A stretch of 64,000 bases of DNA, taken from the NCBI GenBank assembly GCA_900315425.1, contig OMZA01000008.1:62001-126000 (forward strand). The letters are read 5' to 3'. Source of the DNA: an uncultured Eubacteriales bacterium. GTDB lineage: Bacteria > Bacillota > Clostridia > Lachnospirales > Lachnospiraceae. The notes below the pieces were generated by a model. The model had not been told where the DNA came from and made no database searches. It worked only from the letters and a program-made list of their open reading frames with translations. Each line of letters opens with the position of its first letter. Position 1 is the stretch's first letter. Both the position numbers and the translations under genes were made by a program. Shown in pieces: positions 43,494 through 64,000 of the stretch.

Positions 43494-44933
43494 ATGACAA
43501 CTGAAGAATTAATTGAAAAATTAGAGTTGATACAGAAACTAAAATGCGAAACACCAACATTAGAAATAAAAAGTGCAGAAAAAGGATGTCCCAAACATCT
43601 TTATGATTCATTGTCAAGTTTCTCTAATCAAGATGATGGTGGAGTGATTGTATTTGGTGTGGATGAGGAACAAGATTTTAAAGAAGTAGGAGTATATGAT
43701 CCGCAGGATATACAAAAGAAAATTAATGAACAATGTCTACAAATGGAGCCTGTTGTTAGACCATTACTTACTGTGGCTGAAAAAAACGGACTTTTTTTTG
43801 TGGCAGCAGAGATACCAGGTGCAGATATTACAGAAAGACCAGTATTTTATCAGGGTAGAGGTAGAGTAAAAGGTTCATTCGTTCGAGTGGGCGATAGCGA
43901 CGAACCTATGACTGAATACGAGGTATATAGCTACGAAGCCTATAGAAAAAAGTATCAGGATGACATTAGAGTTGTTGAGAGGGCTACTTTTGCAGCGTTA
44001 AATCAAGAATCAATCTTAAATTATATTGAATTACTAAAAATTGGAAAACCTAAGCTGGCAGCAATTCCTGATGATGAAATATATGAGTTAATGAGTATCA
44101 AGAGGAATAATCAAATTACACTGAGTACAGTAATGAACTTCAGCCCATATCCACAGGCATATTTTCCGCAACTATGCATCGTTGCAACAGTTGTTCCAGG
44201 TAAAGAAATGGGAGAAATAGGAGAGCAGGGCGAGAGATTTTTGGATAATCAACGTATAGAGGGAAGTATCCAGGAAATGCTGGATGGTGCTATGCAATTT
44301 GTAAACAGGAATATGCATACAAAAACGATTATAGATCCAAATACCGGAAAACGAGAAGACCGAACTGATTATCCGATTACAGCTTTAAGAGAAGCTATTC
44401 TTAACGCTTTGGTTCATCGTGATTATAGTGTTCATACTGAGGGAATGCCCATACAAATCACGATGTATGAAGATAGAATTGAGATTAAGAATCCTGGTGG
44501 CTTATATGGAAGAATCAAGATAGACCAATTAGGGAAAGTGCAACCAGATACTCGTAATCCAATAATAGCAACTGAGTTGGAAGTGCTAAAAGTAACAGAG
44601 AATAGATACTCTGGAATTCCGACAATTAGAAGAGCAATGCAAGAATACGGATTGCCACAGCCAGAGTTTTTAGAGGAGAGAGGTAGTTTTATTGTAAAGC
44701 TGTATAAGTATGGAGAAAACATATCATCTATTCAGAATGAAAATAGTAAAAACAACGAACTGGTTTTGTTTTGCAAGATTCCGAGGACGCGAACTGAGAT
44801 ATGTGAGTTTTTAGGTTTAAGTTCTGTTACTTATGCCATTCAGACTCATGTTATGCCATTGGTGGAACAAGGAATACTAAAAATGAGCATTCCGGATAAG
44901 CCAAAGAGTCCAAAGCAATTATTCTATAGCTAA
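43494..44933 (+). CDS. AlbA/Schlafen-type ATP-binding protein (COG2865-like)
   Basis: A 479-residue protein. The N-terminal AlbA_2 (Schlafen-like) domain has LEIKSAEKGCPKHLYDSLSS, SNQDDGGVIVFGVDE, and GSFVRVGDSDEPMTEYEVYS. A HATPase_c_4-type region follows (REAILNALVHRDYSVHTEGM and IEIKNPGGLYG), then a C-terminal winged helix (RTRTEICEFLGLSSVTYAIQ). Such proteins are frequent in mobile and defence regions; activity is unknown. GATTGGAGGAACTAAA is the ribosome binding site. A decayed paralogue lies at 61464. Confidence 0.8.
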   Translation: MTTEELIEKLELIQKLKCETPTLEIKSAEKGCPKHLYDSLSSFSNQDDGGVIVFGVDEEQDFKEVGVYDPQDIQKKINEQCLQMEPVVRPLLTVAEKNGLFFVAAEIPGADITERPVFYQGRGRVKGSFVRVGDSDEPMTEYEVYSYEAYRKKYQDDIRVVERATFAALNQESILNYIELLKIGKPKLAAIPDDEIYELMSIKRNNQITLSTVMNFSPYPQAYFPQLCIVATVVPGKEMGEIGEQGERFLDNQRIEGSIQEMLDGAMQFVNRNMHTKTIIDPNTGKREDRTDYPITALREAILNALVHRDYSVHTEGMPIQITMYEDRIEIKNPGGLYGRIKIDQLGKVQPDTRNPIIATELEVLKVTENRYSGIPTIRRAMQEYGLPQPEFLEERGSFIVKLYKYGENISSIQNENSKNNELVLFCKIPRTRTEICEFLGLSSVTYAIQTHVMPLVEQGILKMSIPDKPKSPKQLFYS

Positions 44934-47043: not shown

Positions 47044-47256
47044 TGAGAAAGATCGATATTCCTTATGTGGAAAAGGATGGTATTCTGTATTCGTTACTTA
47101 CTATCCCTGCTGACCGAAATTGTCGGCAGTAGGAAAGTACGGACTGCTGTGGTTATCTTATATGAAGCAAAACCACAAGGGAAGGTTTCGGACGATCACA
47201 AGGCATTGGATGAGGTAATACAGATGATGAAGCAGTTAGTGGAAAGGTGGAGATGA
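47044..47256 (+). pseudogene. TnpV-like transposon protein, frameshifted
   Basis: Starts TTG 47044 with LRKIDIPYVEKDGILYSLLT, broken by a stop at about 47130. The next frame has VGKYGLLWLSYMKQNHKGRF, and a third ends DEVIQMMKQLVERW. Together they match the TnpV pattern (a small protein of integrated transposons: IPYV..DYYIP.L..., GKYGRMRLEYLKEH..., EQMMNQLV). Its 3' end abuts the relaxase start. Confidence 0.55.
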
Positions 47257-47258
47257 TT

Positions 47259-49137
47259 ATGGCGATAACAAAGATTATGTGTATGAAGTCAGCAGAGTAT
47301 GGGAATGTGGCTGCACATCTGAAACATTCCATAGCTTATATTTGTAATGAAACAAAGACGGAAAACGGAAGTCTGGTGGGCGGTATTAACTGTCTGCCGG
47401 ATTTTGCTTATGAGCAAATGATAGGGACAAAGGAAATGTTTGGGCAAACCGGGGGAAGGCAGTGATATCATTTTATTATATCCCTGAAGCCGGGAGAGGG
47501 AACCAGGGAGCAGATGTATGAGATTACCAGACGATTTGCAGAAGAGTTTTTGGGTGGTGAATATGAGGGTGTATTCGGTGTTCACACAGATAAGGATCAC
47601 CTTCACGGACATCTTGTATATAACAGTGTAAATATGGTTACCGGTAGGAAATACAGCTATAAAAAAGGGGACTGGAAGGATGTGATACAGCCCATAACCA
47701 ACAGACTGTGTGAGGAATATGGTTTGTCCATTGTTGCGGCTGAATACAGCAAAGACCCTGTGAATATGAACCGCAAGCAGTGGGAAAAGGAGCAGAGCTG
47801 GGGGCGATTTTATCACGGGAGATATGCAGTATTGCAGGAATAAGGCAGAAAGCTTTTAAAAATTTATTTTTCTTATGGAAAAGCTTGGGTATGAGGTTAA
47901 GGTAGGTACCCATATTTCCATAAAAGCAGAATGTATGAGGCGTAGCAGGAGACTGGATACGCTGGATGAAGAATTTTCGGTGCAGAATCTACAGACCTAT
48001 TATGAGCAGGAGCGGCCCTATAAGTATGTGGAGCCGCCTGTATATCATTCGGGCTATGCTTTGCATAAGAAACCGGCTAATGCTTTTCAACAGCGGTATT
48101 ATGGAAAGTTGTATCGTATGTGTGTGGTGCAGAAATGCCGATTTCAATACAAGTACACAAGGTATCAGCAGGACCTTATCCGCATGAAGGAGTTGCAGGA
48201 GGAGTATCTTTTCTTAAAACGTGAGGGTATAAATGGCTGGGAGGATGTATTCCAGGCAAAGCAGACGGTGGAACAGAAGATTGTAGATATTGATGCAAAA
48301 AAGAAGGAGCTTTACAAGGAGCATGCCCGATACAAGTACCAATACGAAAAGGATGGGGATGTGAATATTTGCCTGTATCATGAGGCTCATTATAGGGAGC
48401 AGCTGGAAGAACTTAAAGAGAGGCGGAAGGTAGCAAAAAGGGAATGTGCAACAATTAACCGCTGTATCAGTGAAAGTACCTTTGCTCATATGGAAATTCC
48501 CCTTGATGTGGATGTGGAGAATCTTTATATGGTGGATATGCCGGAGTTTGAGGGAAATGAGATTTCGTATGCGGAGAGTATGGATTATGACGAGACTACA
48601 GAATATGGAGCAGCAGAGACAGATGAGTATACAGAGTCATATGACGAAGAAAAAATATCTAAGGCGGATTCAACTGTTATTGATGGTGTGCTGTCTGAAG
48701 CAGATGTTGTAGTGACAGATTCGTCTATAACTGAAATTTTACACGAAGAAATAGATATGATTGTACAAGAAGTTTACAATGATATCGATGAGTCGGAGAT
48801 AGTCGAATTGCCTTATGAACCAGAAAATGAACTTATAGAGGCGATAGTTGAAGGTGAAGCAAATTTGCAGACGGTGGAAGCTCTTGATATGACAAAGGAA
48901 TGCTATGAAGCACTTACGGATAAAGAAAAAGTGGAATGGCTTGGAATAGCAGATTGCAGTGTACAGGAGGCTATTCAAAAATTTATAAGTAAGCTTGATT
49001 CCATAGGTGTTGTTTATCGGTATAGTGATGATATGTTGGATGAATTTATGAGACTTGAGTCGGTGAAGGAACTGATGAAAAGTGGAGAAAAAAGCGAACA
49101 AACACAAAGAAGTGCACAAAAAGAAAGGCGAAAATAG
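47259..49137 (+). pseudogene. Relaxase/mobilization nuclease (VirD2-like), frameshifted
   Basis: ATG 47259 opens MAITKIMCMKSAEYGNVAAH ... to a frameshift near 47462. The next frame gives FIISLKPGEGTREQMYEITR and the relaxase histidine triad in FGVHTDKDHLHGHLVYNSVN, ending at 47843. A third frame (47875-49137) is the 420-residue C-terminal part, coiled-coil with acidic C-terminal repeats. At least two frameshifts or deletions prevent a full product. It nicked oriT of the parent element when active. Confidence 0.75.
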
Positions 49138-49235: not shown

Positions 49236-49284
49236 AAGGAAGCATCGCTCCATAACTAATAGTTATAGGAGCGACACTTCCTTA
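49236..49284 (-). terminator. Terminator downstream of the lanthipeptide precursor
   Basis: Stem GGAAGCATCGCTCC / GGAGCGACACTTCC with two mismatches, with an inner ATAACTA/TAGTTAT palindrome. It ends 13 bp from the precursor stop on the minus strand. Few T residues follow, so it may also act as an RNA stabiliser. Confidence 0.65.
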
Positions 49285-49296
49285 TTGTTGATAATC

Positions 49297-49494
49297 TTAA
49301 CAACTCTGGGTTAAATTACATTCGGCAGAAATTGAACAAAAAGCACCATAGCTACCCAATGTTGCGCGTTTGCAATATTTTTTAGAACTTTTTTTTGTAT
49401 ATGTACCACCTAATGTCTGGCGCATATCCTGTTCATTTAATTCATCTAAAAGATTACCTACGGGATTTTCTTTAAAAAAGTCATTTTTTTTCAC
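49297..49494 (-). CDS. Class II lanthipeptide precursor (plantaricin C-like)
   Basis: A 65-residue precursor. The start is GTG 49494 with AAGGTGGTGA upstream. Leader of 30 residues: MKKNDFFKENPVGNLLDELN then EQDMRQTLGG, the Gly-Gly site cut by C39 peptidases. The 35-residue core starts TYTKKSSKKYCKRATLG and ends CSISAECNLTQSC. CSISAEC matches the lipid II-binding CTLTSEC block of mersacidin/plantaricin C-type lantibiotics, and TYTKKSSKKYC resembles the KKTKKNSSGD start of plantaricin C. Ser/Thr residues are available for rings to Cys. It lies on the strand opposite to the modification genes, which are found at 54176-59390. Confidence 0.85.
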   Translation of the reverse strand: MKKNDFFKENPVGNLLDELNEQDMRQTLGGTYTKKSSKKYCKRATLGSYGAFCSISAECNLTQSC

Positions 49495-49688
49495 AGTGTC
49501 ACCACCTTTCTGAGTATAATTTGCAAAACTGCTTTTTTATGCTAGTGGAAAATAGAAGAAATGTCAAGAAAATTCACAGAATAATTTCTTGGAAAAATGA
49601 AAATGGGTTACAGTACAGACGTTAGCTTGAACTGAATAAAACGATGGTATAAACTTGAGCTGTAATCAGGTTTGACCATCGGTTTTCT

Positions 49689-50993
49689 TTATCCAAAAAT
49701 CTTGGATACTCTGTCAAATACATTTGTCTCATTATTTCTGCGCATCATTAACAGCATGCTCATGCTTTGACAGAGGTAATCGATGCTTTCAAAACTCCGG
49801 AATGACACGGCCTGCTTTTGTTTCCGTTTGTATGATCTTAGATCTCTTTCGGCTTCATTATTAGTGGCTGGAACCCTGTTATCGTGAAGAAACAGGAGAT
49901 GGTTTTTCATATATTTAGCCATTCTTTTATAATGATTGAAACCATCTTTATAATAATCACTTGGTTGTTCGTACTCGTATTCTTCTTTTGCAATAATTCT
50001 TCTGAAGAATCAAGTCCGTTTCCGTAATGCAGCATTTCTTTTATTAATGCAAGCATTTGCGTACTCCATGTTTTATCCTGTTCATTTGCATCAGAATCCT
50101 TGAGATAACGTTCCACATGAGCCATACATTCCTGATGATCCGAACAATATTTATAGAATGTTTTCTCATGGTCATGGACGATGATACCTGCATAATCTTC
50201 AGCAGGAAAAGAAATGCTTTGATGCTACCATCATAATTAATATCATTTACAACTCCGTCAGGAAAAGCGGCATGCAGTCGTTCACCCGTTTTTGAGTTGT
50301 AGTATACATCAGCACAATATTCAACTATATCCAGAGCTAATCGTATTCCGACCACCTGCTTTGTGATAGTCTTTTTTGTTTTCTTAAAATCCGGATCATT
50401 CAGGACTTCTTCCGGAGCAGGCAGATTTACAACCTTTGCAGGAGTATGTTTTTTTCTTCCATATCCTTTATGGCCCGGCTGGGCACCCTGTTTTCAGCCT
50501 GTTTTCTCACGGCTGTTTGAAATCTTTTTTATGTTTGTGCTCATTGAGGATGGAATGGACGAATTCTCGTAATTATGGTTTAACTGGGCAGTGCGTTTCT
50601 TATTTTTTTCCTTTTCTTCCTCCAATTCCACTCCGAGTCTGTATTTTTCGAGCCTTTCTTCTTTGAGCTTATCAAGTGCACCATCGCGCTGTATTTCGGC
50701 ATTTAAAGCACTTTTATCAGGTCTTTGTCTGCTTTGGCAAGCTTTTCCTCGCATTCTTTATCAAAGTCATCCGTTACTTCAATCCAATAGTTGCGTACAG
50801 TTACAGTCTCAGCATGTGCTCTTTCAACTTCCTTTTCCAGAGCCTTGATTCTGGTTTCCTGTTTTCGGATAATACTCTGGTAATAAGCTTCCATCTGAAT
50901 ATATTTTTTTTCACTTTTAAAAGCAGCTATTTGGTTTTCAGCTGCTTTTAAACGGTATTGAAGAGTTGAAATACATTCAAATGAACTGTTCAT
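49689..50993 (-). pseudogene. IS66 transposase, multiply frameshifted
   Basis: Starts ATG 50993 (MNSSFECISTLQYRLKAAEN, a coiled-coil). Then in different frames follow AQLNHNYENSSIPSSMSTNI (the N-terminal signature of IS66 TnpC), VVGIRLALDIVEYCADVYYN, AHVERYLKDSDANEQDKTW, and the C-terminal VPATNNEAERDLRSYKRKQK. At least four frame changes break it, so it is inactive. Confidence 0.85.
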
Positions 50994-51013
50994 TTCGATT
51001 TTTTCCTTTCTGC

Positions 51014-51214
51014 TTATTCAAGTGCTCTCAGGAGGTTGACTGAATCGTGTATCTTTTCTACGTATTCCTGCTGCTGGGTAATCTGTATTTTCTGATAATC
51101 AATGATTTCTTTCTGGGCTTCAATCAGTTCACTTTGAACATCTATGGCGTGTTCCAGATCTTTGATATAGTTCTGTGTTTTTTTATCAAGTTTACTAATA
51201 TCCACTCTTTTCAC
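51014..51214 (-). CDS. Small coiled-coil ORF at the 5' end of the IS66 element
   Basis: 66 residues: KRVDISKLDKKTQNYIKDLE then HAIDVQSELIEAQKEIIDYQ, coiled-coil. It precedes the transposase start by 21 bp and ends in a stop of its own. It may be an accessory ORF of the element or the separated N-terminus of the transposase. Confidence 0.4.
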   Translation of the reverse strand: MKRVDISKLDKKTQNYIKDLEHAIDVQSELIEAQKEIIDYQKIQITQQQEYVEKIHDSVNLLRALE

Positions 51215-51258
51215 CTCGCTTTGTATCTGATAACTATTGTATCGAATTTACAAAAAAA

Positions 51259-51299
51259 GGCATTTATGAAATACTATCAACATGATATTCATAAATGCC
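51259..51299. repeat. Long hairpin inside the IS66 end
   Basis: GGCATTTATGAA(A)TA ... TATTCATAAATGCC, a 14-bp stem with one bulge and an 11-base loop, between the small ORF and the right end. Such internal hairpins can shield the transposase from outside transcription. Confidence 0.5.
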
Positions 51300-51405
51300 A
51301 AAGATTATCCACGAAAAAATTTTTTTAAATTCAGCAATTTAGACAATGGTTATTTATGGGGTGTGTACAGTAACGAAAATGGGAAGCAAATTTGAAAAGA
51401 GCAAC

Positions 51406-51434
51406 TTGATTAATTGTAAAATTTAGAGTACAAT
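51406..51434 (+). promoter_or_regulatory. Promoter of the lanthipeptide operon
   Basis: TTGATT, 17 bp, TACAAT, just right of the IS target duplication and 36 bp before the ABC ATPase gene (ribosome binding site GAAAGGAGAATTG). Confidence 0.6.
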
Positions 51435-51469
51435 ATCTGCTTGTTTGAAAAGAAAGGAGAATTGATAAT

Positions 51470-52204
51470 ATGATTAAACTTAATGATTTACATAAAGTTT
51501 ATACTGCTCTTGGAGGGGTAAATTGTACGGCTTTGAACAATATAAATCTTCAAATTTATGACAATGAATTTTTGGCTATTATGGGAGAATCGGGTAGTGG
51601 AAAATCAACAATACTTAATATGATTTCTATGATAGATTCACCAACGTCTGGTAATATAGTGTTTGATGAAATAAATAATTTGAAAAATATGACAGAAAAT
51701 CAGAAAGAAGAGTATAGAAGGAAGAAGATTGGAATGATATTTCAGGATTTTAAATTATTAAATAAATTTAGTTTAAAAGACAATATATTATTGCCACTTC
51801 TTATGCAAGGCTTTAAGTATGAAAGTATTGAACCAGAATTTGTAAAAATAGTCGAGATGCTTAATTTGGATTTTTCATTAGATAAATATCCCTATGAGAT
51901 ATCAGGAGGACAACAACAAAGGATTGCCATTGCAAGAGCATTGATAAAAAAACCAGAGATTATATTGGCTGATGAACCAACAGGAGCATTAGATTCGAAA
52001 AATAGTGAGATTATTTTGAAATTGCTTAAAGAAATAAATAAAACAGGACAAACAATTTTGATGGTAACACATAGTGTTAAAGCGGCAAGTTTTGCTGATA
52101 GAATAATAATATTAAAGGATGGATGCATAGATAACGAAATCCGTAATGAAAACAAAAATCCAGAAGAAATCATGAGGAATGTAACGGATTATTTCTGTTT
52201 TTAG
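51470..52204 (+). CDS. BceA/LanF-like ABC transporter ATPase (self-immunity candidate)
   Basis: A 244-residue ATP-binding protein of the MacB/BceA type: Walker A GESGSGKSTIL, signature ISGGQQQR, Walker B LADEPTGALDS. It pairs with the FtsX-like permease that starts 15 bp later. In class II lantibiotic loci such transporters (LanFEG or BceAB) protect the producer by clearing the peptide from the membrane. No BceRS-type sensor is encoded nearby. Confidence 0.88.
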   Translation: MIKLNDLHKVYTALGGVNCTALNNINLQIYDNEFLAIMGESGSGKSTILNMISMIDSPTSGNIVFDEINNLKNMTENQKEEYRRKKIGMIFQDFKLLNKFSLKDNILLPLLMQGFKYESIEPEFVKIVEMLNLDFSLDKYPYEISGGQQQRIAIARALIKKPEIILADEPTGALDSKNSEIILKLLKEINKTGQTILMVTHSVKAASFADRIIILKDGCIDNEIRNENKNPEEIMRNVTDYFCF

Positions 52205-52218
52205 TAAAGAGAGGGATT

Positions 52219-54183
52219 ATGTATAATAATAGATGTATAGAATTGGCTATTACAAATATCAGAAGTAACAAGAAGTTTTACGTGCCATATTTTGTTGCAT
52301 GTATATGTTTGATGATAATAACTGGCATATTAATGTTATTGTCAAAAAGTGAGTGTGTTTGCAATTTGAGTTTTGGCAGTACATTGTCAATGATTTTTTC
52401 TAAAGCATCAATATTGGCGAACATCATGTTGTTATTATTTATGTTTTTAGGAAATAGAGTATTATTGAAAAACGAGACATATTTTATTGGACTATTACAA
52501 TGTGTAGGCATAAAGAGAAAAACTGTTTTGGTAGTATATTTAGTTGAGCAAACTATTATTTTTATTGCGGCAGGAATAGCAAGCGTTTGTCTTACACCTG
52601 TTTTATTTTATGTGTCAATGTTTGGCTTGAGGAATTTAATGAATTTAGAGGGGGTGTTGCAAGAAAATGTTGATTTTTATACATTGCTAAAAAGCTTTAT
52701 GATACACTTGTGCTTTTTTATATGTGTTCAAGTGGGGAATTGTATATACATAAAGAAAAATAATCCGCTTAGTACAATGTTGAATGAGGTAAGAAGTGAG
52801 GCGCATACTGTTAAAAAAATGACTAAAGGGTGGTATGTGCTATCGTTAGGGATAATAACGCTGGGGTATTATTTTCCTCATATGATCAAAGCTGATTTTC
52901 AAATAGTACTTTATATGTTTGGAGCGGCGATGCTGTTGATTTTTGGAACAATATTGCTTTTTAAAAAAGGGATAATTGATATATTATTAAGCATAAAAAA
53001 AAGGAAACTTTTTTATAATAAAAAAGTTTTTTTTGTAGTATCAGATCTTTTGTATGGCGTAAATAAAAATGCAATGGCTTTAGCCATGTTAACTATATTG
53101 TTAACTGGAATTTTAACGGTTCTTTTAGGTGGAACAGCATTATATTTAAGCGTTTATGATAATATTGAACAAAAATATGCATATGACATACAGATTGATG
53201 AATATGAGCAAAATATTGCTGTTTTTGACGAAGAGACACTTGACGAACTAGCCAATGAAGCAAAAGTTGAAATAAAGACATATAAGATTGTTTCATATTG
53301 CAATTCTGTAATGAGTTATTCAGAGAGTTCATTGAATGAGTGGGATGGCGTGTACGATCACGAACAATTGATTGATGTTTATTTTATCCCTGTAGAAAAA
53401 AGTATAATCGAAAATATAGGAGCAACTAATGATATAGTAATATATGATCCAGAAAATAGAATTACTACATCAGATCTTTTGATTGGTGGCGTGAAATATA
53501 ATGTTATAAGAGAAGAACATAGTGAAATTCAAGTAATAAAAGATGGTGGAAAAAGTGATTTAGATGAAATATATATATTTGCTCATATGGAACAATTAGA
53601 AAAGATGGATGTTAATAAGTATAGCTATAATCAATGGATAGGTGTTAACATATGTGATGCGAAACAAATGTCAAATACATTATGTGAATTAATAGAAGAA
53701 TATATATTGGAATCAAATCAAGAAAATGTTTTTTATAGTAGTAGACAAGAGGCTATAGAGGAAACATATCAGATGTATGGCGGATTATATTTTGTTTCGA
53801 TAATATTGGGTATATCATTGATTATTGCGTTTGTTATTTTGTTGTTTTATAAACTAAATGATGATTTATTGGATAATAGACACAATTATCGCACGATGTA
53901 TCATCTTGGCATGTCTCGACGGGAATTAAATGCTTTAAGTAAAGATTATATAAAAGTTGTATATTTGGTTCCAATTATTATATCTACCGCCCACTATTTG
54001 TTTATGGCAATGGCAGTAAAGATTATATTGAATAGAGAAGTGAGTGTATCGAATTTATATTATATTCAAATATGTATTATGGTATTATTAGTAGTGGTTA
54101 TCATTGTTTTTCTGTTATATAAAGGATTACTTGCTGTATTAACGCAAAATGATATTATGACAATGGGAGAGTGTTATGAGTAA
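52219..54183 (+). CDS. BceB-like FtsX-domain permease
   Basis: A 654-residue membrane protein with ten predicted helices in the BceB arrangement: two FtsX modules (near 20-160 and 530-640), and a large extracellular domain (about 310-520) rich in charged residues, thought in BceB proteins to recognise the peptide. Ends overlap lanM by 8 bp. Immunity or sensing is the likely role. Confidence 0.8.
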   Translation: MYNNRCIELAITNIRSNKKFYVPYFVACICLMIITGILMLLSKSECVCNLSFGSTLSMIFSKASILANIMLLLFMFLGNRVLLKNETYFIGLLQCVGIKRKTVLVVYLVEQTIIFIAAGIASVCLTPVLFYVSMFGLRNLMNLEGVLQENVDFYTLLKSFMIHLCFFICVQVGNCIYIKKNNPLSTMLNEVRSEAHTVKKMTKGWYVLSLGIITLGYYFPHMIKADFQIVLYMFGAAMLLIFGTILLFKKGIIDILLSIKKRKLFYNKKVFFVVSDLLYGVNKNAMALAMLTILLTGILTVLLGGTALYLSVYDNIEQKYAYDIQIDEYEQNIAVFDEETLDELANEAKVEIKTYKIVSYCNSVMSYSESSLNEWDGVYDHEQLIDVYFIPVEKSIIENIGATNDIVIYDPENRITTSDLLIGGVKYNVIREEHSEIQVIKDGGKSDLDEIYIFAHMEQLEKMDVNKYSYNQWIGVNICDAKQMSNTLCELIEEYILESNQENVFYSSRQEAIEETYQMYGGLYFVSIILGISLIIAFVILLFYKLNDDLLDNRHNYRTMYHLGMSRRELNALSKDYIKVVYLVPIIISTAHYLFMAMAVKIILNREVSVSNLYYIQICIMVLLVVVIIVFLLYKGLLAVLTQNDIMTMGECYE

Positions 54184-57100
54184 GAATGAAGTAATAAGTT
54201 TGTGGAAAAAATATTTGTATGAAATTGATAAAGAAGAAAAATATGAAATGCATATGAAAAGTTGTTTTAATATGACAATAAATGAACTATTTGAGCAACG
54301 AAAAGAAGAAAAACCGAATGAAAAATTAATTAGTGATATTTTAAAACAACGTAATGAGAATTTGTACTTAGAAGAAATTATTAAGTATAATGAGTCAATG
54401 TTTAAGAATATTCCATTTTGGAATTTCTATAAGCCAATTTTATTTTATTATTTTGAGGGAAAGTCAAAATTTGAGGAATATCAAGAACAAGTTTTAGATA
54501 TTGATAATTTTATGTGTAGAATGCTTATTCAGGGATATCTGTATTTGCATAATTATGGAAAAAGAAGCATAATATTCGAATTGAATTATGCTAGGGAAAA
54601 TAAAGAATTGCATGGTGATAGTGCAGAAGAAAGATATCATTTTTTTAATGAAGAGATGTTGTCTGATGATATGTTTTTAAAAGATCTGTATAGTGAATAT
54701 TCAGAATTATTTAAAGTTTTAACACTAAAGGCTAATCAATATGTGGAGTATGTAATTGATATATTGGAATCATATAGGAGAGAATGCCATCAAATAAAAA
54801 AAGTGTTTGGTTTTGAAAAAAACGAAAAAATTGTTGATGTGAAATTGGGACAGGGAGATTTGCATAAAGGTGGAAAAACAGTAGCAATTTTACAGTTGGA
54901 GAATAATTTAGTGGTATATAAGCCAAATAAATTGGGAATTGAAATTGCTTATTATGAACTGATAAAGTGGATTAATCGTAAGATAGATATTAACTTGGCA
55001 GCAGCAAAATCATATTTTACAGGCAGTGCAGTGTGGATGGAATATATGGAAACATCAGCATGTAAAACAGAAGAAGACATTAAGGAGTTTTATTTAAATA
55101 TTGGCATGATAATGTGCATATTATATTCGTTAAATGCTACAGATTTTCACCACGAAAATATTTTGGCATGTGGAAGAAAGCCAGTATTGATTGATTTGGA
55201 AACATTAATTACTCCCTTTATTGAAGAGGAAAATAAGGATGCACTATCTGTTGTGAGTGCTATTTTAGATCGTTCCATTGCAAGTATGCATTTATTGCCA
55301 GAACATATTATCAATACAAATGATCAAATTTTTGATGTTAGTGGTTTAGGGGCTATAAATGAGCAACAAAGTCCATATAAAGTTGAAGTTTTAGCTAATG
55401 TTGGTATGGATACAATGAGGGTGGAAAGAAATTTTGTACAAATAAAATCTAAAAATAATAATCCTGTTTTTGAAAATAAAAAAATTGAATCCGTAAAATA
55501 TCTTCCTGAAATTAAATTGGGATTTGAAAAGATGTATTATTGGATTGTTGAAAATCGTAGTGAATATAAAGAGAAAGTATTAGCTATTTTCAAAGGGACA
55601 TCTTGTAGATATATTGCGAATGCAACTGCCATATATGCTAATTTGTTGAGTTCAAGTTTTCATCCTGATGTATTAAGGAATAGTATAGATAGAAAAGTGT
55701 TATTGTCTAGAATTGCATTTTCTCAGGAAGAAATATCACCTCTGGTTAAGTCAGAGATAAATGATATGTATAATGGAGATATTCCGTATTTTAGTGTGGG
55801 ATTTGATGATAGAAATATATTTGATTCCGAAGAACATATGGTACAAGAGTATACATTTTCATTGTCACCGAAAGAAAATTTTATTAGGAAAATAAATGAA
55901 TTTTCAGAAAGAGATTTGGAAATTCAATTATCGATTTTAGATTTTACGTATTTATATACCGTAGACGATGTTGAATTCTATAAAGAAAGAACATTGCCTA
56001 AGGGAATTTATGGTGACTATCAAGATTGTATTGATTCAAGTAATGAGTGGATTGAATTATCTCAAAAAATTGGTAAGCATATTTTCGAGCAGAGCATTAA
56101 GGGTAAGAATGGAGAATATATAGATAGAAGTTGGATAGGTCCTGTGTTTCTGGTAAAAAAAGAAATATATGTTAATGTGAAAAATATAGGTTTAGACATG
56201 TATAAAGGCAACAGTGGGTTGGCGTTGTATTTTGCATCAATATATAAGATCACAGGGTTGGAGTATTTTAAAATTGCAGCTATTGAGACACTTAATACAG
56301 CGCTAACTCTTTCGCAAAATGTTGGTTTAGATGCTATGAAGGAATATGCGATAGGCGTGGGAGCTTTTAATGGTTTAAGTGGAATTGCATATTCTGCTTT
56401 TTGGGTAGGTGTACTTCTTGGTGAAAAACAATATATAGATTTTGCTAAAGATTTTTTATTGGAATTGATAATGGGAAAAAATTCATACCCTAAGGATGCT
56501 CTAGATGTAATATCTGGATTGGCAGGATTATTAAGTGTATTGATGGCTTTAGTTAATAACTCTGAAGGATATATAACGAAAGAAGATGTTAATAAATTAG
56601 TTGAATGTTCTGATATAGTGTATTCTCAAATGGAGCAAAGTTTAACAGAAGATGAATTTTTTGGATGTGATGGACTTACGGGATATGGACATGGAACTAG
56701 TGGAATATGTACAAGTTTGTATAAATATTATTTGGTAAACAAAGATGATAGTGTGTTGAAATATGTGCGAATTTTATTGGAATACGAAAGAAACATGTAT
56801 TCAACGGAACTCAATAATTGGTATTTAGATAGGCAAAAAGATGATGTCTCATATGGCTGGTGCCATGGAAGTTCTGGTATTTTGTTAAATAGGCTATTTT
56901 TATATGGAAATGGCTATTTTGATAATTATATTGAAAATGAAATACAAATCGCACTGAAGGAAACACTAGAAAAAGGTTTTGGCAATAATCCGACATATTG
57001 CCATGGTGATCCCGGTAATTTTGAAATAATTATGTATGCTACTCATATATTGAAGGATACTATGTTGGAACAACAGGTAAAAAGAGCATTTGGTCACTAT

Positions 57101-57247
57101 GTAAATAATTATATTATGCAAAATTGGGATAAACCATTATTAGGACATGCGGAAGTATTTGCTTTGATGAGTGGAATGGCTAGCATAGGTTATTCACTTA
57201 ATAAGTTTCTTGATAAAAAGTTGCCTAATATTTTATTGTTGGAGTAG
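54176..57247 (+). CDS. lanM: Class II lanthipeptide synthetase LanM
   Basis: A 1023-residue bifunctional enzyme. N-terminal dehydratase (DUF4135): VVYKPNKLGIEIAYYE and the kinase-like DFHHENILACGRKPVLIDLE near 322-341. C-terminal LanC-like cyclase with zinc-ligand motifs GYGHGTSGI (near 837), WCHGSSGI (near 894) and CHGDPGN (near 941). It dehydrates Ser/Thr and joins them to Cys in the precursor at 49297. All key motifs are intact. Translationally coupled to the permease gene by the 8-bp overlap. Confidence 0.93.
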   Translation: MSKNEVISLWKKYLYEIDKEEKYEMHMKSCFNMTINELFEQRKEEKPNEKLISDILKQRNENLYLEEIIKYNESMFKNIPFWNFYKPILFYYFEGKSKFEEYQEQVLDIDNFMCRMLIQGYLYLHNYGKRSIIFELNYARENKELHGDSAEERYHFFNEEMLSDDMFLKDLYSEYSELFKVLTLKANQYVEYVIDILESYRRECHQIKKVFGFEKNEKIVDVKLGQGDLHKGGKTVAILQLENNLVVYKPNKLGIEIAYYELIKWINRKIDINLAAAKSYFTGSAVWMEYMETSACKTEEDIKEFYLNIGMIMCILYSLNATDFHHENILACGRKPVLIDLETLITPFIEEENKDALSVVSAILDRSIASMHLLPEHIINTNDQIFDVSGLGAINEQQSPYKVEVLANVGMDTMRVERNFVQIKSKNNNPVFENKKIESVKYLPEIKLGFEKMYYWIVENRSEYKEKVLAIFKGTSCRYIANATAIYANLLSSSFHPDVLRNSIDRKVLLSRIAFSQEEISPLVKSEINDMYNGDIPYFSVGFDDRNIFDSEEHMVQEYTFSLSPKENFIRKINEFSERDLEIQLSILDFTYLYTVDDVEFYKERTLPKGIYGDYQDCIDSSNEWIELSQKIGKHIFEQSIKGKNGEYIDRSWIGPVFLVKKEIYVNVKNIGLDMYKGNSGLALYFASIYKITGLEYFKIAAIETLNTALTLSQNVGLDAMKEYAIGVGAFNGLSGIAYSAFWVGVLLGEKQYIDFAKDFLLELIMGKNSYPKDALDVISGLAGLLSVLMALVNNSEGYITKEDVNKLVECSDIVYSQMEQSLTEDEFFGCDGLTGYGHGTSGICTSLYKYYLVNKDDSVLKYVRILLEYERNMYSTELNNWYLDRQKDDVSYGWCHGSSGILLNRLFLYGNGYFDNYIENEIQIALKETLEKGFGNNPTYCHGDPGNFEIIMYATHILKDTMLEQQVKRAFGHYVNNYIMQNWDKPLLGHAEVFALMSGMASIGYSLNKFLDKKLPNILLLE

Positions 57248-57254
57248 ATGTGTT

Positions 57255-59390
57255 ATGTTTAAGAAAAAAATACCATATATACAGCAAATAAGTTATACAG
57301 AGTGTGGAATTTGTTGTGCCGGAATGTTGCTTGGATATTATGGTATAAATTACTCGTTAAATGAATTAAGAGATTACTTTGATGTAAGTAGAGATGGTGT
57401 TGATTTAAAACAGATAAAGGATTTTATTGATTCTCATGGTTTGATTACAAAAGCTATATCTTGTGAAACGGAAATGTTATTAAATGTTCGAGGTCCTGCT
57501 ATTATTTTTTGGGAGAACAGTCATTTTGTTGTTTTAGAAAAAACGACGAAAAATTGCGCTTATGTAATTGATCCTGTATATGGTAGGAGAACAATAGAAC
57601 TTGAAAAGTTTAAAGCATCTTTTTCAAGAAAAGCATTATTGGTTGCAAAAAAAGGTAAAATTAATAAAAAAGGTAATATAAATCATACAAAGCTATGGAA
57701 AATTTATAAAGTAAATAGCTTCGATGTTTTTAGTGCTGTTTTTTTGTTGATTTTATCAATGATAGGTTATTTATTTACCATAGGTATTCCAATAATTACA
57801 CAAAATATTATAGATTTTACCGTAGAAAAGGGATATGTTAAGAAGAGTTATATTGGACTTATGTGTTTAGTGATACTCATTAGTGTGGCAAATGGGATCA
57901 TTAAGAATTTAAGGACAATAGATATGCGCATTAAAATTGACCGTTTTATAAATAGAACTATTTTTTCACGTTTGTTACATGTTCCGTATATGTATTTTGA
58001 TACGAGGGCACAGAGCGATATAATATATTCCCTAAATGGTTGTACGATTATTAGGGATGTTTATATAGAAAGATTATTTCAGTGTATGCTTGATGTGGGA
58101 GCTATTATATTTTTAACTATATATTTGCTAAAAAAATCATTGTGGATAACAGTTATAGTGTTGTGTTTGGCAATGATAGATTTGTGGATAGTATTGTATT
58201 CTAGAAAAAAAATGATGGAAGCTGAAAATTCTAAATTAATTGAACAAGGACGTGTTCAAGGAATTCAAACTGAAACAATATTCTCAATTTTGGGTGTAAA
58301 GATGAGTGGTTTGGAGGAAGATATACTAAATAGGTGGGATAAAGAGTATGATGATTTTGCCAAAATGTATAGGCGAAGTGAATATATTGAATTCGTGGTT
58401 GCTGAAATTCAACGAGGGATAAGTCAATTTTCTCCAATATGTGTACTGATAGGCGGATTATTTTTGATGGTAAAAGGATCTTTTTCTTTAGGAGAACTGA
58501 TTGTTATGTATTCTTTAAACATCACTTATTTTTCTCTTATAATGTCAGTATTTTCCAGTTGTAATGCTTTTGTTACCGGAAAATTGTATATGGATAGAAT
58601 ATATGATATTCTTGATACGCAGGAAGATGATAGTTCGAAAGGAGAAAAAACAGAGTTTGAAGGGAATATTTTTCTTCAAGATGTAAGTTTTAAATATAGT
58701 AAAAATTCAAAAGAAGCCATTTCAAAAATAAATATTGACATCAAAAAGGGAGAGTGCGTTGCTATAGTAGGAGAATCGGGTTCGGGAAAAAGTACAATAG
58801 CTAAAATAATAGCGGGTTTATATATGCCTACGGACGGAAAAGTGTTTTATGACAATTGTGATAGTAGTAAAGTTGATTTGTCAGAAATTAGAAAAAAAAT
58901 GGGCATAGTACCACAAGAAGTTTCTCTTTTTAATAGAACTATTTTAGAAAATATCAGATTAGATCGTACTGAATATGAGTTGAGTGATGTTCAAAAGATA
59001 TGTGAAATTGTTAATATCCATGAAGATATAAGCAATATGCCATTGGGATACAATACGATAATATCTGAAATGGGAGTTAATTTGTCAGGTGGTCAGAGAC
59101 AGCGAATAGCATTAGCTAGAGCATTGTTATCTAGTCCTAAAGTAGTGTTGTTAGATGAAGCAACAAGTTCATTGGATACTATAAATGAAAATAAAGTAAT
59201 GGATTATTTTAAAAGTATAGGGAGTACAAGAATTATAATAGCTCATAGATTATCTACAGTAAAAGATGCTGACAAAATATTTGTAATTGATCAGGGGGGT
59301 ATTTATGAAATGGGAACCCACAATGAATTGATGGCTAGTAGGGGAAAGTATTATGAGCTATACAATAGATACTATGTTGAAAATTTTTAA
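57255..59390 (+). CDS. lanT: Peptidase-containing ABC transporter LanT
   Basis: A 711-residue exporter starting at ATG 57255 (MFKKKIPYIQQISYTECGIC). C39 peptidase: Gln11, Cys17, His near 89 in NSHFVVL and Asp near 107 in VIDPVYG. Six membrane helices (about 155-440) and an ABC domain with GESGSGKSTIA, LSGGQRQRIALARALL and VVLLDEATSSLD. It removes the leader at Gly-Gly and exports the lantibiotic. Starts 7 bp after lanM. Confidence 0.92.
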   Translation: MFKKKIPYIQQISYTECGICCAGMLLGYYGINYSLNELRDYFDVSRDGVDLKQIKDFIDSHGLITKAISCETEMLLNVRGPAIIFWENSHFVVLEKTTKNCAYVIDPVYGRRTIELEKFKASFSRKALLVAKKGKINKKGNINHTKLWKIYKVNSFDVFSAVFLLILSMIGYLFTIGIPIITQNIIDFTVEKGYVKKSYIGLMCLVILISVANGIIKNLRTIDMRIKIDRFINRTIFSRLLHVPYMYFDTRAQSDIIYSLNGCTIIRDVYIERLFQCMLDVGAIIFLTIYLLKKSLWITVIVLCLAMIDLWIVLYSRKKMMEAENSKLIEQGRVQGIQTETIFSILGVKMSGLEEDILNRWDKEYDDFAKMYRRSEYIEFVVAEIQRGISQFSPICVLIGGLFLMVKGSFSLGELIVMYSLNITYFSLIMSVFSSCNAFVTGKLYMDRIYDILDTQEDDSSKGEKTEFEGNIFLQDVSFKYSKNSKEAISKINIDIKKGECVAIVGESGSGKSTIAKIIAGLYMPTDGKVFYDNCDSSKVDLSEIRKKMGIVPQEVSLFNRTILENIRLDRTEYELSDVQKICEIVNIHEDISNMPLGYNTIISEMGVNLSGGQRQRIALARALLSSPKVVLLDEATSSLDTINENKVMDYFKSIGSTRIIIAHRLSTVKDADKIFVIDQGGIYEMGTHNELMASRGKYYELYNRYYVENF

Positions 59391-61463: not shown

Positions 61464-62847
61464 TTGATTCCATTAAAAATAGAAACATTACTGGAAGGTC
61501 GTGTTGTAGAGCATTATCGAGTTGAATATAAAACTGGCTGGAATCCTAATGATATTATTCATTCTATCTGTGCCTTTGCTAATGATTATGATAATAATGG
61601 TGGTTAGATTGTTATTGGCGCAAAGGAAAAGAATGGAATGCCAGTATTTCCGTTAGTAGGTGTTCCAAAGAAAAATCTAGATTCTATTCAGCAGGAGATA
61701 GTGGTCCATATCAGGCACCAAAGGTTGTATATGCTGAAAAAGGCGAGAAGGTTGATTAGAACCTGAAATACTGGATACGACCAGAATCACTTACAACAGA
61801 AGCGAAACAGGACGAAATATCAGAGTTGTTTGGTAAATTTAATTCGGTACCATTTGACGATAGAGTTAATAGAAAAGCTACTATAGACAGTATCAGAAGA
61901 GGTTATCTTGAAGATTTTATTCGTAAAAGTAATAGTAGTCTGGTACAAGAAATAAACAGTAGCTCTATTGAAAATTTGCTTCTTGCGGAAGAAGTAGCAA
62001 ATGAAACAGATACAGAACTTGATATTAGGAATATAGGTGTATTGATGTTCGCTGAACATCCAGAGAAGTTTATTCCAGGGGCGCAAATTGAACTTATAAA
62101 GTTTAATACGGAAGAAGCAGAGGCTTCTGATGATTTTATTGAGAAAGTATTTACAGGACCAATATGGAAGCAGGTTGAGGATGCATTAGATTATATTAAA
62201 ACGAATGTAATCGAAGAAAAAGTTGTAAAAATATCAGGTCAAGCAGCTGCAGAGCGTTTTTTAATTATTCGTATAATGCGCTTGAGGAAGCTTTGGGAAA
62301 TGCTGTTTTTCATAAATCATATCGAGAAGCTGAACCTGTTGAGATTCGTATATATGTGGATAGTATACAGATTCTTAACTATCCGGGAATTGCAAAATGG
62401 ATTAGTCTTGATAAATTTAAGGAAGGCAAAATTAGAGGAAGAAAGTATTGTAATAGAAGAATCGGTGAATTGTTTAAAGAAATCGATTTGTCCGAAAAAA
62501 AAGGTACTGGCATTTCAAAGATTTTAAGAGAATTAAAGAAAAATGGCTCGCCTGAAGTAGAATTCGAGATGGATGATGATAGAAATTATCTTAATACGAT
62601 TATTCATATTCATGATGGGTTTGAAAAAAGGGACATAATGTACGAATCAATGTCCGAATTAGAAAAAGCAAGAATGAAGGTTGTGTTGGATTACTTGGGT
62701 GTTAATTCCTCTATTAATAGTACAAAGGCAGCCGAATTGTTGAATGTTGAGGTTAAGACTGCAAGTAGATTGTTAGCAAAAGCAGAAAAGATACAAATTC
62801 TTAGGAGTGAAGGAAAGACTAAGAAAAAAGTATACCATATGGGTTAG
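61464..62847 (+). pseudogene. Second AlbA/Schlafen-type protein, decayed
   Basis: A paralogue of the intact gene at 43494 in type: [20 protein letters not shown] and [16 protein letters not shown] at the N-terminus, then a TAG at 61606 and another stop near 61759. Next come ISELFGKFNSVPFDDRVNRK and NVLMFAEHPEKFIPGAQIEL-like segments, a frameshift near 62260, then NALEEALGNAVFHKSYREAE and a C-terminal winged helix. Two stops and one frameshift inactivate it. Confidence 0.7.
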
Positions 62848-62900: not shown

Positions 62901-64000
62901 ATGAATTTAGTTGGCTCGGAGATAAATGGATATAGATTTGAGGAAGCTCTAGGAAGTGGAAGTTTTGGTTCTGTATATAAAGTTTCTAAAGAAGGTCAAC
63001 TGTATGCTGCAAAGGTTTTGGCTGAAACTTATATTCTCGATGAATTTAAAAATGATCAAAATAGGATAACCAGAGAAATTGATGTATTGAAGAAGGTCAA
63101 AGGTGATAATCTGATAAAATTTCAGGAAGATTTTTTCTTTGAAAATGAATTTGGTATAAAAGAATATGTGATTGTAATGGAATATTTTTCAGGAAAAACT
63201 CTTAGAAAATATTTGAAAGATGATGTTGAATTGGATGTCTTGATTTCAATTTTTGTTAAAGTTTTGAATGGAGTAAAACAATTGCATAATACAATTATTG
63301 ACACTGAGGGAATAATACATAGGGATCTAAAGCCTGATAATATATTAATTGATGATAGTTTAAATGTGAAAATCATAGATTATGGATTGAGTAAAATAGT
63401 TGATTTTTCATCAATAACTTCTACAGGAACACAAATAGGATCACCACTATATATGTCTCCAGAACAGTTGAAGGACAGTAAACATATTGATTATAGAGCA
63501 GATATATATGCTTTGGGTGTAATACTATACGAAATGGTGACAAAAAATATTCCGTATAAAGCAACAACTTTACCAGAGCTATTAATGAAGATATTGAATG
63601 AACCAATTATACCACCGAAACAGTATAATGATAAAATAAGCGATGAATTGGAACATATAATAATAAAGGCTACCGCCAAGGAGCAATTTGCGAGGTTTCA
63701 AACCATAGACGAATTTATTGATGCGTTTAATAGTAAAGCAATACAGGATGAATTGAAAACTTTAGGAAAATATTATGCATGGGTATATAAAGAAAAAGAT
63801 GTTACAATTCAGTATGAAAAGGATAATGAAGCAGATATAATATATCCTCTTCATGTACAGGGTTGGCAGAAAGGATTGCATAAGTATTTGCTTGAGAAGG
63901 AATTTGCCAATGTTATTATTGATCCGTCGACCCAAAGGCTATCATATGTTGCATTTGGTAATACGAAAGGATTGGTAGAACTTCCTTATGCGCCAGAAGT
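62901..64000 (+). CDS. Hanks-type Ser/Thr protein kinase with C-terminal extension (partial, runs off the edge)
   Basis: At least 366 residues from ATG 62901 (GGGAGGTATAGAGAT upstream). Kinase domain 1-285: Gly loop LGSGSFGSVYKV, Lys in YAAKVL, catalytic loop IIHRDLKPDNILID, metal loop IIDYGLS (DYG instead of DFG), APE-like SPLYMSPEQL. After about 285 an extra domain begins (YYAWVYKEKDVTIQYEKDNE and QGWQKGLHKYLLEKEFANVI) that has no PASTA repeats and continues beyond the window. Such kinases with unusual C-terminal domains occur in phage-defence regions; the function here is open. Confidence 0.85.
   Translation, partial: MNLVGSEINGYRFEEALGSGSFGSVYKVSKEGQLYAAKVLAETYILDEFKNDQNRITREIDVLKKVKGDNLIKFQEDFFFENEFGIKEYVIVMEYFSGKTLRKYLKDDVELDVLISIFVKVLNGVKQLHNTIIDTEGIIHRDLKPDNILIDDSLNVKIIDYGLSKIVDFSSITSTGTQIGSPLYMSPEQLKDSKHIDYRADIYALGVILYEMVTKNIPYKATTLPELLMKILNEPIIPPKQYNDKISDELEHIIIKATAKEQFARFQTIDEFIDAFNSKAIQDELKTLGKYYAWVYKEKDVTIQYEKDNEADIIYPLHVQGWQKGLHKYLLEKEFANVIIDPSTQRLSYVAFGNTKGLVELPYAPE

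Follow-up and report, generated by a model that had tools for sequence, protein, structure and literature searches.

The locus examined here raises the question of whether a small reading frame encoding 65 aa, found on the opposite strand to a lanthipeptide synthetase gene and 4.7 kb away from it, can be the precursor gene for that enzyme, and what kind of peptide the two would make. It is found in contig OMZA01000008.1 (assembly GCA_900315425.1) of an uncultured Eubacteriales bacterium from the Lachnospiraceae, in a 64,000 bp stretch (positions 62,001–126,000) that is called the window below. A first-pass annotation, made from the sequence alone, had reported a complete class II lanthipeptide locus, with this minus-strand precursor gene (lanA, GTG start, GG leader site) located 4.7 kb from an intact gene for a LanM synthetase, and an intact gene for a LanT exporter. 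All of this was recovered, and two features beyond that annotation were found, namely a decayed IS66-family insertion sequence (IS), which appears to account for the distance between lanA and lanM, and a pair of genes for a BceAB-type transporter in front of lanM. The best explanation for the whole, and one that we consider likely, is a class II lanthipeptide (lantibiotic) cluster that is apparently intact but has been split by an IS. The features are listed in Table 1.

Precursor, synthetase and exporter genes

LanA matched the NCBIfam model NF000539 ('plantaricin C family lantibiotic') with 53.1 bits (E 3.3e-14; cut-off 29), and the same model found no match in any of 14 control genomes. The match to Pfam L_biotic_typeA (15.3 bits) was under the cut-off of 21.7, and a PDB sequence search with LanA gave no match at E <= 10. 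As in other class II precursors, a GG-type leader is followed by a core containing Ser, Thr and Cys. LanA was also the sole open reading frame (ORF) in the window to pass our own precursor filter, which selects short ORFs that are preceded by a ribosome site and whose product has an acidic GG, GA or GS leader and an end bearing Cys and Ser/Thr, and which odd precursors can escape. The lower part of the hairpin 3' of lanA was also flagged in the scan that gave the promoter-like sites.

LanM matched TIGR03897 with 725.8 bits (cut-off 304) as well as Pfam DUF4135 and LANC_like, and the two relatives with solved structures found by sequence search of the PDB were LicM2 (E 2e-88) and CylM (E 2e-44). 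The residues of CylM assigned to phosphorylation, elimination and zinc binding, in the part of the source available (PMC4550811), are D252, H254, K274, D347, H349, N352, D364, R506, T512, C875, C911 and H912. All 12 are identical in LanM when counted by eye in the printed alignment, where they correspond, in the same order, to D228, H230, K249, D323, H325, N328, D340, R478, T484, C896, C942 and H943. LanT contains the Pfam domains Peptidase_C39 (E 3.3e-34), ABC_membrane and ABC_tran, and the motifs that we take to be those of the peptidase and the ATPase were located in its sequence. Because lanM overlaps bceB by 8 bp and is separated from lanT by only 7 bp, bceA, bceB, lanM and lanT probably form a single operon.

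Pairing of lanA with lanM

That LanA is the substrate of this LanM is well supported by comparison with their relatives. In a plasmid collection, LanA matched a single record, the Priestia megaterium plasmid pFDU301E (NZ_CP045267.1), with 43.9% identity over 57 aa (E 4e-3). The best match to LanM was in the same record (35.1% identity), followed by 30.9% for the next among the 15 listed of 192 matching records. In pFDU301E, the precursor and LanM genes are adjacent and carry the annotations plantaricin C family lantibiotic and LanM; a gene for a peptidase-type exporter lies behind them and an ATP-binding cassette (ABC) ATPase/permease pair in front. The two regions have in common a precursor accompanied by a single LanM, a peptidase-type exporter and an ABC ATPase/permease pair, but in Priestia all of these genes are on the same strand, lanM is directly 3' of the precursor gene, and genes for a sensor and a regulator are present.

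A tree was built from 24 LanM sequences, comprising 21 of the 24 LanM matches from related genomes together with those of Priestia, genome G681 and one whole enzyme from genome G142 (locus L023); L049, L050 and L051 (L049 and L051 being parts of that G142 enzyme) and the other plasmid LanMs were left out. The LanMs of the window and of Priestia were sisters (support 99/97) inside a clade of 10 rows (100/100) that also contained the M1 enzymes of two-component systems, while five M2 enzymes formed a separate clade (99/98). M1 and M2 are our own labels, and for G017, where the LanM genes are on a different contig from the precursor genes, the label rests on the tree. The inner forks of the 10-row clade had weaker support (91/91 and 84/86), and the Priestia row was among eight flagged for composition.

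Precursors and LanMs were also found to occur together. In a set of 294 related genomes, NF000539 was matched at E <= 0.01 in 10 (above the cut-off in seven) and LanM at E <= 1e-10 in 16. Both were found in nine of the 10 NF000539 genomes, or eight of nine when the window's own genome is set aside (p ~ 5e-11, hypergeometric, relatedness ignored). The tenth, G022, had a weak match within a frame of 1008 aa. In a second sample of 392 genomes of the order, three had an NF000539 match at E <= 0.001, namely the window's own, G161 and G681. In G090 and G161 (loci L020, L022 and L025), each locus has between one and four similar precursors near LanM genes, and most of these precursors combine a GA leader site with a SYEC block (AIQLTLAGKC...SYEC).

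Neither a precursor match nor a LanM match was found in the other eight genomes of the genus, and the cluster is therefore accessory. LanM was at most 30% identical to the LanMs found in the 293 other related genomes. Within the genus, the right flank was matched in three and the left flank in six of nine genomes, the window's own counted, and in the others the matches were pieces of 42 to 1173 bases; with matches this fragmentary, no empty site for the whole cluster is demonstrable.

Composition of the predicted peptide

The first-pass annotation had called the precursor plantaricin C-like. This holds for the family match, for the leader and for the Lys-rich start of the core, but the middle stretch resembles alpha-type peptides and the Priestia relative instead. 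In the available part of the description of plantaricin C from Lactobacillus plantarum LL441 (PMC6107846), the leader is of the same style (MKKN, GN-x-LEELN, GG), and the core likewise starts with Lys (KKNSSGDIC, compared with KKSSKKYC in LanA). The KK(N)SSxxxC arrangement, the TSEC/SAEC block and a LanM-type enzyme are also common to both. The same source gives plantaricin C a core of 27 residues without a counterpart of TLGSYGAFC in LanA, the motif CTLTSEC with Thr where LanA has CSISAEC, and an operon in which plnC is followed by lanM and then four ABC-transporter genes, unlike the locus here.

The Priestia precursor includes LGRNYGETC, which resembles TLGSYGAFC, and it has the SAEC block; its motif is CTWSAEC, with Thr, and it has no Lys-rich tail. 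The alpha-type peptides of G017, G155 and G015 include an LGNKGxxC stretch that resembles TLGSYGAFC (G139 is less alike), and they share with LanA both the order LG-x-x-G-x-x-C then C-x-x-x-x-E-C and the LanM clade. They differ in having Thr where LanA has Ser and in lacking the Lys-rich tail. Compared in this way, the LanA core appears to be a mix of plantaricin C-type and alpha-type parts, with S6/S7–C11, T15–C23, S24–C29 and S26–C35 as a likely ring pattern by analogy. The unmodified core has a calculated average mass of 3829.4 Da; closing four rings would take 4 or more dehydrations (3757.3 Da at most), and ten dehydrations would bring the mass to 3649.2 Da. A more specific possibility is a one-peptide mixed build, in which a plantaricin C-type Lys-rich tail and first ring (SSKKYC) would be joined to a second ring of alpha/mersacidin type (TLGSYGAFC) and to a lipid II ring formed with Ser (a lanthionine, not a methyllanthionine); we put this forward tentatively and with considerable doubt.

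The resemblance of the core stretch LGSYGAFCSISAEC to the alpha-type peptides of G017, G155 and G015 (and, less so, G139), whose loci also carry beta-type precursors, together with the position of LanM in the clade holding the M1 enzymes, allows another reading, in which LanA is the alpha peptide of a two-component lantibiotic. The beta precursor and a second LanM would then have been lost or lie elsewhere, and LanA alone would be weak or dependent on its partner. We think this unlikely. Searched with a profile of six beta peptides, the window's own genome (96.38% complete) had no beta precursor at E <= 1; the profile found beta peptides in five of the 10 genomes searched, all five being its source genomes. 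The LANC_like search found no second LanM in this genome, only the LanM described here and a stand-alone LanC-like gene. In Priestia, one LanM gene adjoins the related precursor gene and the second adjoins that of a type A2 peptide, and the 10-row clade includes the systems of G090 and G161, where no beta match was found.

An IS66-family element between lanA and bceA

An element of 1768 bp, flanked by copies of the 8 bp sequence GAAAATGG, was found between lanA and bceA. IS66 elements generate 8 bp duplications of their target. The ends of the element, GTTACAGTACAGAC and (on the other strand) GTTACTGTACACAC, are alike at 12 of 14 positions and, when extended, at 13 of 20. A piece at 49689–49922 matched Pfam DDE_Tnp_IS66 with 25.9 bits (cut-off 23.1); of four other pieces searched, three had no match and one had weak coiled-coil matches under the cut-off. 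Direct repeats of 8 bp bracketing 1–3 kb are numerous in the window (6387 pairs), but ends with at least 12 of 14 positions alike were found in this pair only, and in none of the 146976 pairs from 30 shuffled sequences. An inverted-repeat search seeded with 7 bases missed these ends, whose exact shared runs are of five bases only. The genome yielded no second copy of the element among the 40 of 48 first-look candidates that were scored.

The longest stop-free frame on the minus strand of the element has only 149 codons, and the transposase is therefore broken. When the element is subtracted, lanA and bceA are divergent and 199 bp apart, and the insertion thus appears to account for the separation of lanA from lanM. 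A separation was also seen in G015 (locus L024, G015:C15:33000-52500), where the alpha-type precursor gene lies ~3.7 kb from its LanM gene and the intervening stretch holds ORFs that read as reverse-transcriptase-like and transposase-like.

The position of the element in a divergent control region could also mean that the cluster is a relic, the insertion having removed control sequences or parted the genes so that production of the peptide has ceased. Pieces of a relaxase gene adjoin the cluster, and no regulator was seen here, unlike in Priestia, where genes for a sensor and a regulator lie next to the ABC pair. This explanation is improbable in our view. A minus-strand frame of 149 aa is too short for a transposase and all five lan and bce frames are open, which suggests that the cluster has outlived the element and has been kept since the insertion, and promoter-like sites persist on both sides of the element. 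It is very improbable that lanA is a stray precursor gene unrelated to this LanM and brought nearby by rearrangement, despite its opposite orientation, its distance and the intervening element, as the clean target duplication favours a simple insertion, the best plasmid relatives of the precursor and LanM are side by side in pFDU301E, and no other LanM was found in the genome with LANC_like.

The CSISAEC block and the BceAB-type transporter

The CSISAEC block of LanA had been matched to the lipid II-binding motif CTLTSEC by the first-pass annotation. The Glu and both Cys residues are indeed kept, but the ring-forming Thr is replaced by Ser. The published putative lipid II-binding motif is (C)TXS/TXD/EC, and replacement of its Glu by Ala abolished the activity of lacticin 3147 alpha, mersacidin, actagardine and haloduracin alpha, as stated in the available part of PMC3918158. 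LanA departs from this mersacidin-type motif at the first Thr, and all other motif positions are kept.

The permease encoded by bceB matched BceB (E 2.1e-11, over residues 8–629) and PsdB (E 3.4e-9) in the PDB sequence search, and its match to Pfam FtsX was under the cut-off. It was at most 28% identical to the other matches listed in the family survey. The ATPase reached no NCBIfam cut-off among the 25 matches listed of 207, and its designation as BceA is taken from its position beside the permease gene. As in BceAB and PsdAB, one ATPase is combined with one large permease, but no BceRS-type pair was seen among those neighbouring ORFs that were tested. BceAB confers protection from mersacidin and actagardine, two peptides that bind lipid II, and has been proposed to free the target, in the part of PMC7038271 available. 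By analogy, the BceAB-like pair is a probable self-immunity system. Considering the motif, the position of the ring and the BceAB-type genes together, lipid II is a reasonable candidate for the target of the putative lantibiotic.

Proposed mechanism and points against it

If the cluster is an intact one split by an IS, lanA and bceAB-lanMT would originally have been divergent over ~200 bp. An IS66-family element would then have entered this spacer and degenerated with time, while both promoter-like sites were retained and the five lan and bce frames stayed open. LanA would be produced from its own promoter, LanM would dehydrate Ser and Thr residues of the core and close up to four thioether rings, and LanT would cleave after Gly-Gly and export the peptide. 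Outside the cell, the SISAEC ring would most likely grip lipid II, so that cell-wall synthesis stops, and the BceAB-like transporter would free the producer's own lipid II.

Several points weigh against this account. Function would need to have persisted after the insertion. The match to a lanA promoter is suggestive only, and promoter-like sites are common in the region (16 found, 8.6 expected). No regulator gene was seen in the cluster, a search that did not extend to the rest of the genome. The similarity of LanA to the Priestia peptide is modest, and pattern scans confirmed no close relatives for LanA or LanM in genome contigs, for LanM in viral contigs or for LanA in phages, so that this exact lanA–lanM pair has no counterpart there for comparison. 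Thr is found at the first motif position in eight of nine aligned precursors, with LanA the exception (the SYEC-type precursors from G090 and G161 were not in the alignment, nor were the weak matches in G142 and G022). What the conserved Glu does when lipid II is bound has been termed unclear, with no contact to Glu in simulations, in the available part of PMC9863751. Finally, 177 of the 397 genomes surveyed in the family have relatives of the BceB-type permease, and because this type of permease is so common, finding one next to lanM says less about the target than it would seem to.

Table 1. Features of the lanthipeptide locus, with coordinates in the window
Feature	Coordinates	Strand	Description and basis
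Terminator-like hairpin	49236..49283	-	Directly 3' of lanA; -31.3 kcal/mol, 22 pairs, 1 unpaired base
lanA	49297..49494	-	65 aa precursor, GTG start; ORF and NF000539 match
LanA core	49300..49404	-	TYTKKSSKKYCKRATLGSYGAFCSISAECNLTQSC; 35 aa, 4 Cys, 10 Ser/Thr, net charge ~ +4
CSISAEC block	49318..49338	-	Variant of putative lipid II-binding (C)TXS/TXD/EC motif; alignment
LanA leader	49405..49494	-	MKKNDFFKENPVGNLLDELNEQDMRQTLGG; 30 aa, ends GG; aligns with plantaricin C and Priestia leaders
lanA ribosome site	49502-49509	-	AAAGGTGG; sequence
lanA promoter-like site	49539..49567	-	TTGACA-17-TAGCAT; consensus scan, 10/12; inside stretch remaining after IS
Target-site duplication, left copy	49599..49606		GAAAATGG; 8 bp
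Decayed IS66-family element	49607..51374		1768 bp; termini, duplication, Pfam piece
Target-site duplication, right copy	51375..51382		GAAAATGG; 8 bp
Promoter-like site before bceA	51406..51434	+	TTGATT-17-TACAAT; consensus scan, 9/12
bceA-like ABC ATPase gene	51470..52204	+	244 aa; Pfam ABC_tran E 2e-34
bceB-like permease gene	52219..54183	+	654 aa; PDB sequence match to BceB and PsdB
lanM	54176..57247	+	Class II lanthipeptide synthetase, 1023 aa
lanT	57255..59390	+	ABC exporter, 711 aa, C39 leader peptidase at N terminus; ATG start at 57255

Neighbouring genes and other observations

A relaxase gene in pieces was found at 47247–49137, with matches to Pfam Relaxase of 70.8 bits (47514–47843) and 19.5 bits, the latter under the cut-off (47247–47465), and these pieces next to the lan locus appear to be the remnant of a mobile element. 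The G+C content around these pieces is 41–43% (46–49 kb), compared with 26–32% at 51–60 kb. Genes with an HATPase_c_4 domain (RecG C-terminal-like) flank the lan region at 43494–44933, where AlbA_2 was also matched, and at 61826–62847. The right one is apparently split over two overlapping frames, with the match only in 62293–62847. The start of a Ser/Thr protein kinase gene (62901–63998; Pkinase E 7.6e-49) runs off the window.

The second LANC_like gene of the genome (L026, G000:C36:11936-13318) encodes a stand-alone LanC-like protein of 460 aa and lies between O-acetylhomoserine sulfhydrylase-like and cysteine synthase-like genes, named by reading their sequences. Relatives were found in six of nine genomes of the genus, its own included, and by eye YHG replaces the CHG expected for lanthionine cyclases. 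It was considered as a second lanthipeptide enzyme and rejected, as it sits among apparent sulfur-amino-acid genes and the precursor filter found nothing on its 15.4 kb contig.

Implications

In a rumen collection, class II has been reported to be more abundant than any other lanthipeptide class and to occur mainly in Bacilli and Clostridia, in the available part of PMC13289728. A text search of an open-access library found no paper with SISAEC, and none of the titles and abstract openings listed there names this peptide. LanA appears to be a new peptide that is otherwise an ordinary member of this well-studied class. The split by an IS66-family element serves as a warning that precursor genes located beyond an insertion, and on the other strand, can be missed. 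The locus provides a candidate for a new lipid II-type lantibiotic with a full set of genes for making and export and, probably, for immunity. The Ser in place of Thr in the putative binding ring would be a natural experiment on whether the methyl group of the ring matters. If the mixed build is correct, lipid II binding and membrane damage would be combined in one peptide, and binding would tolerate the loss of that methyl group.

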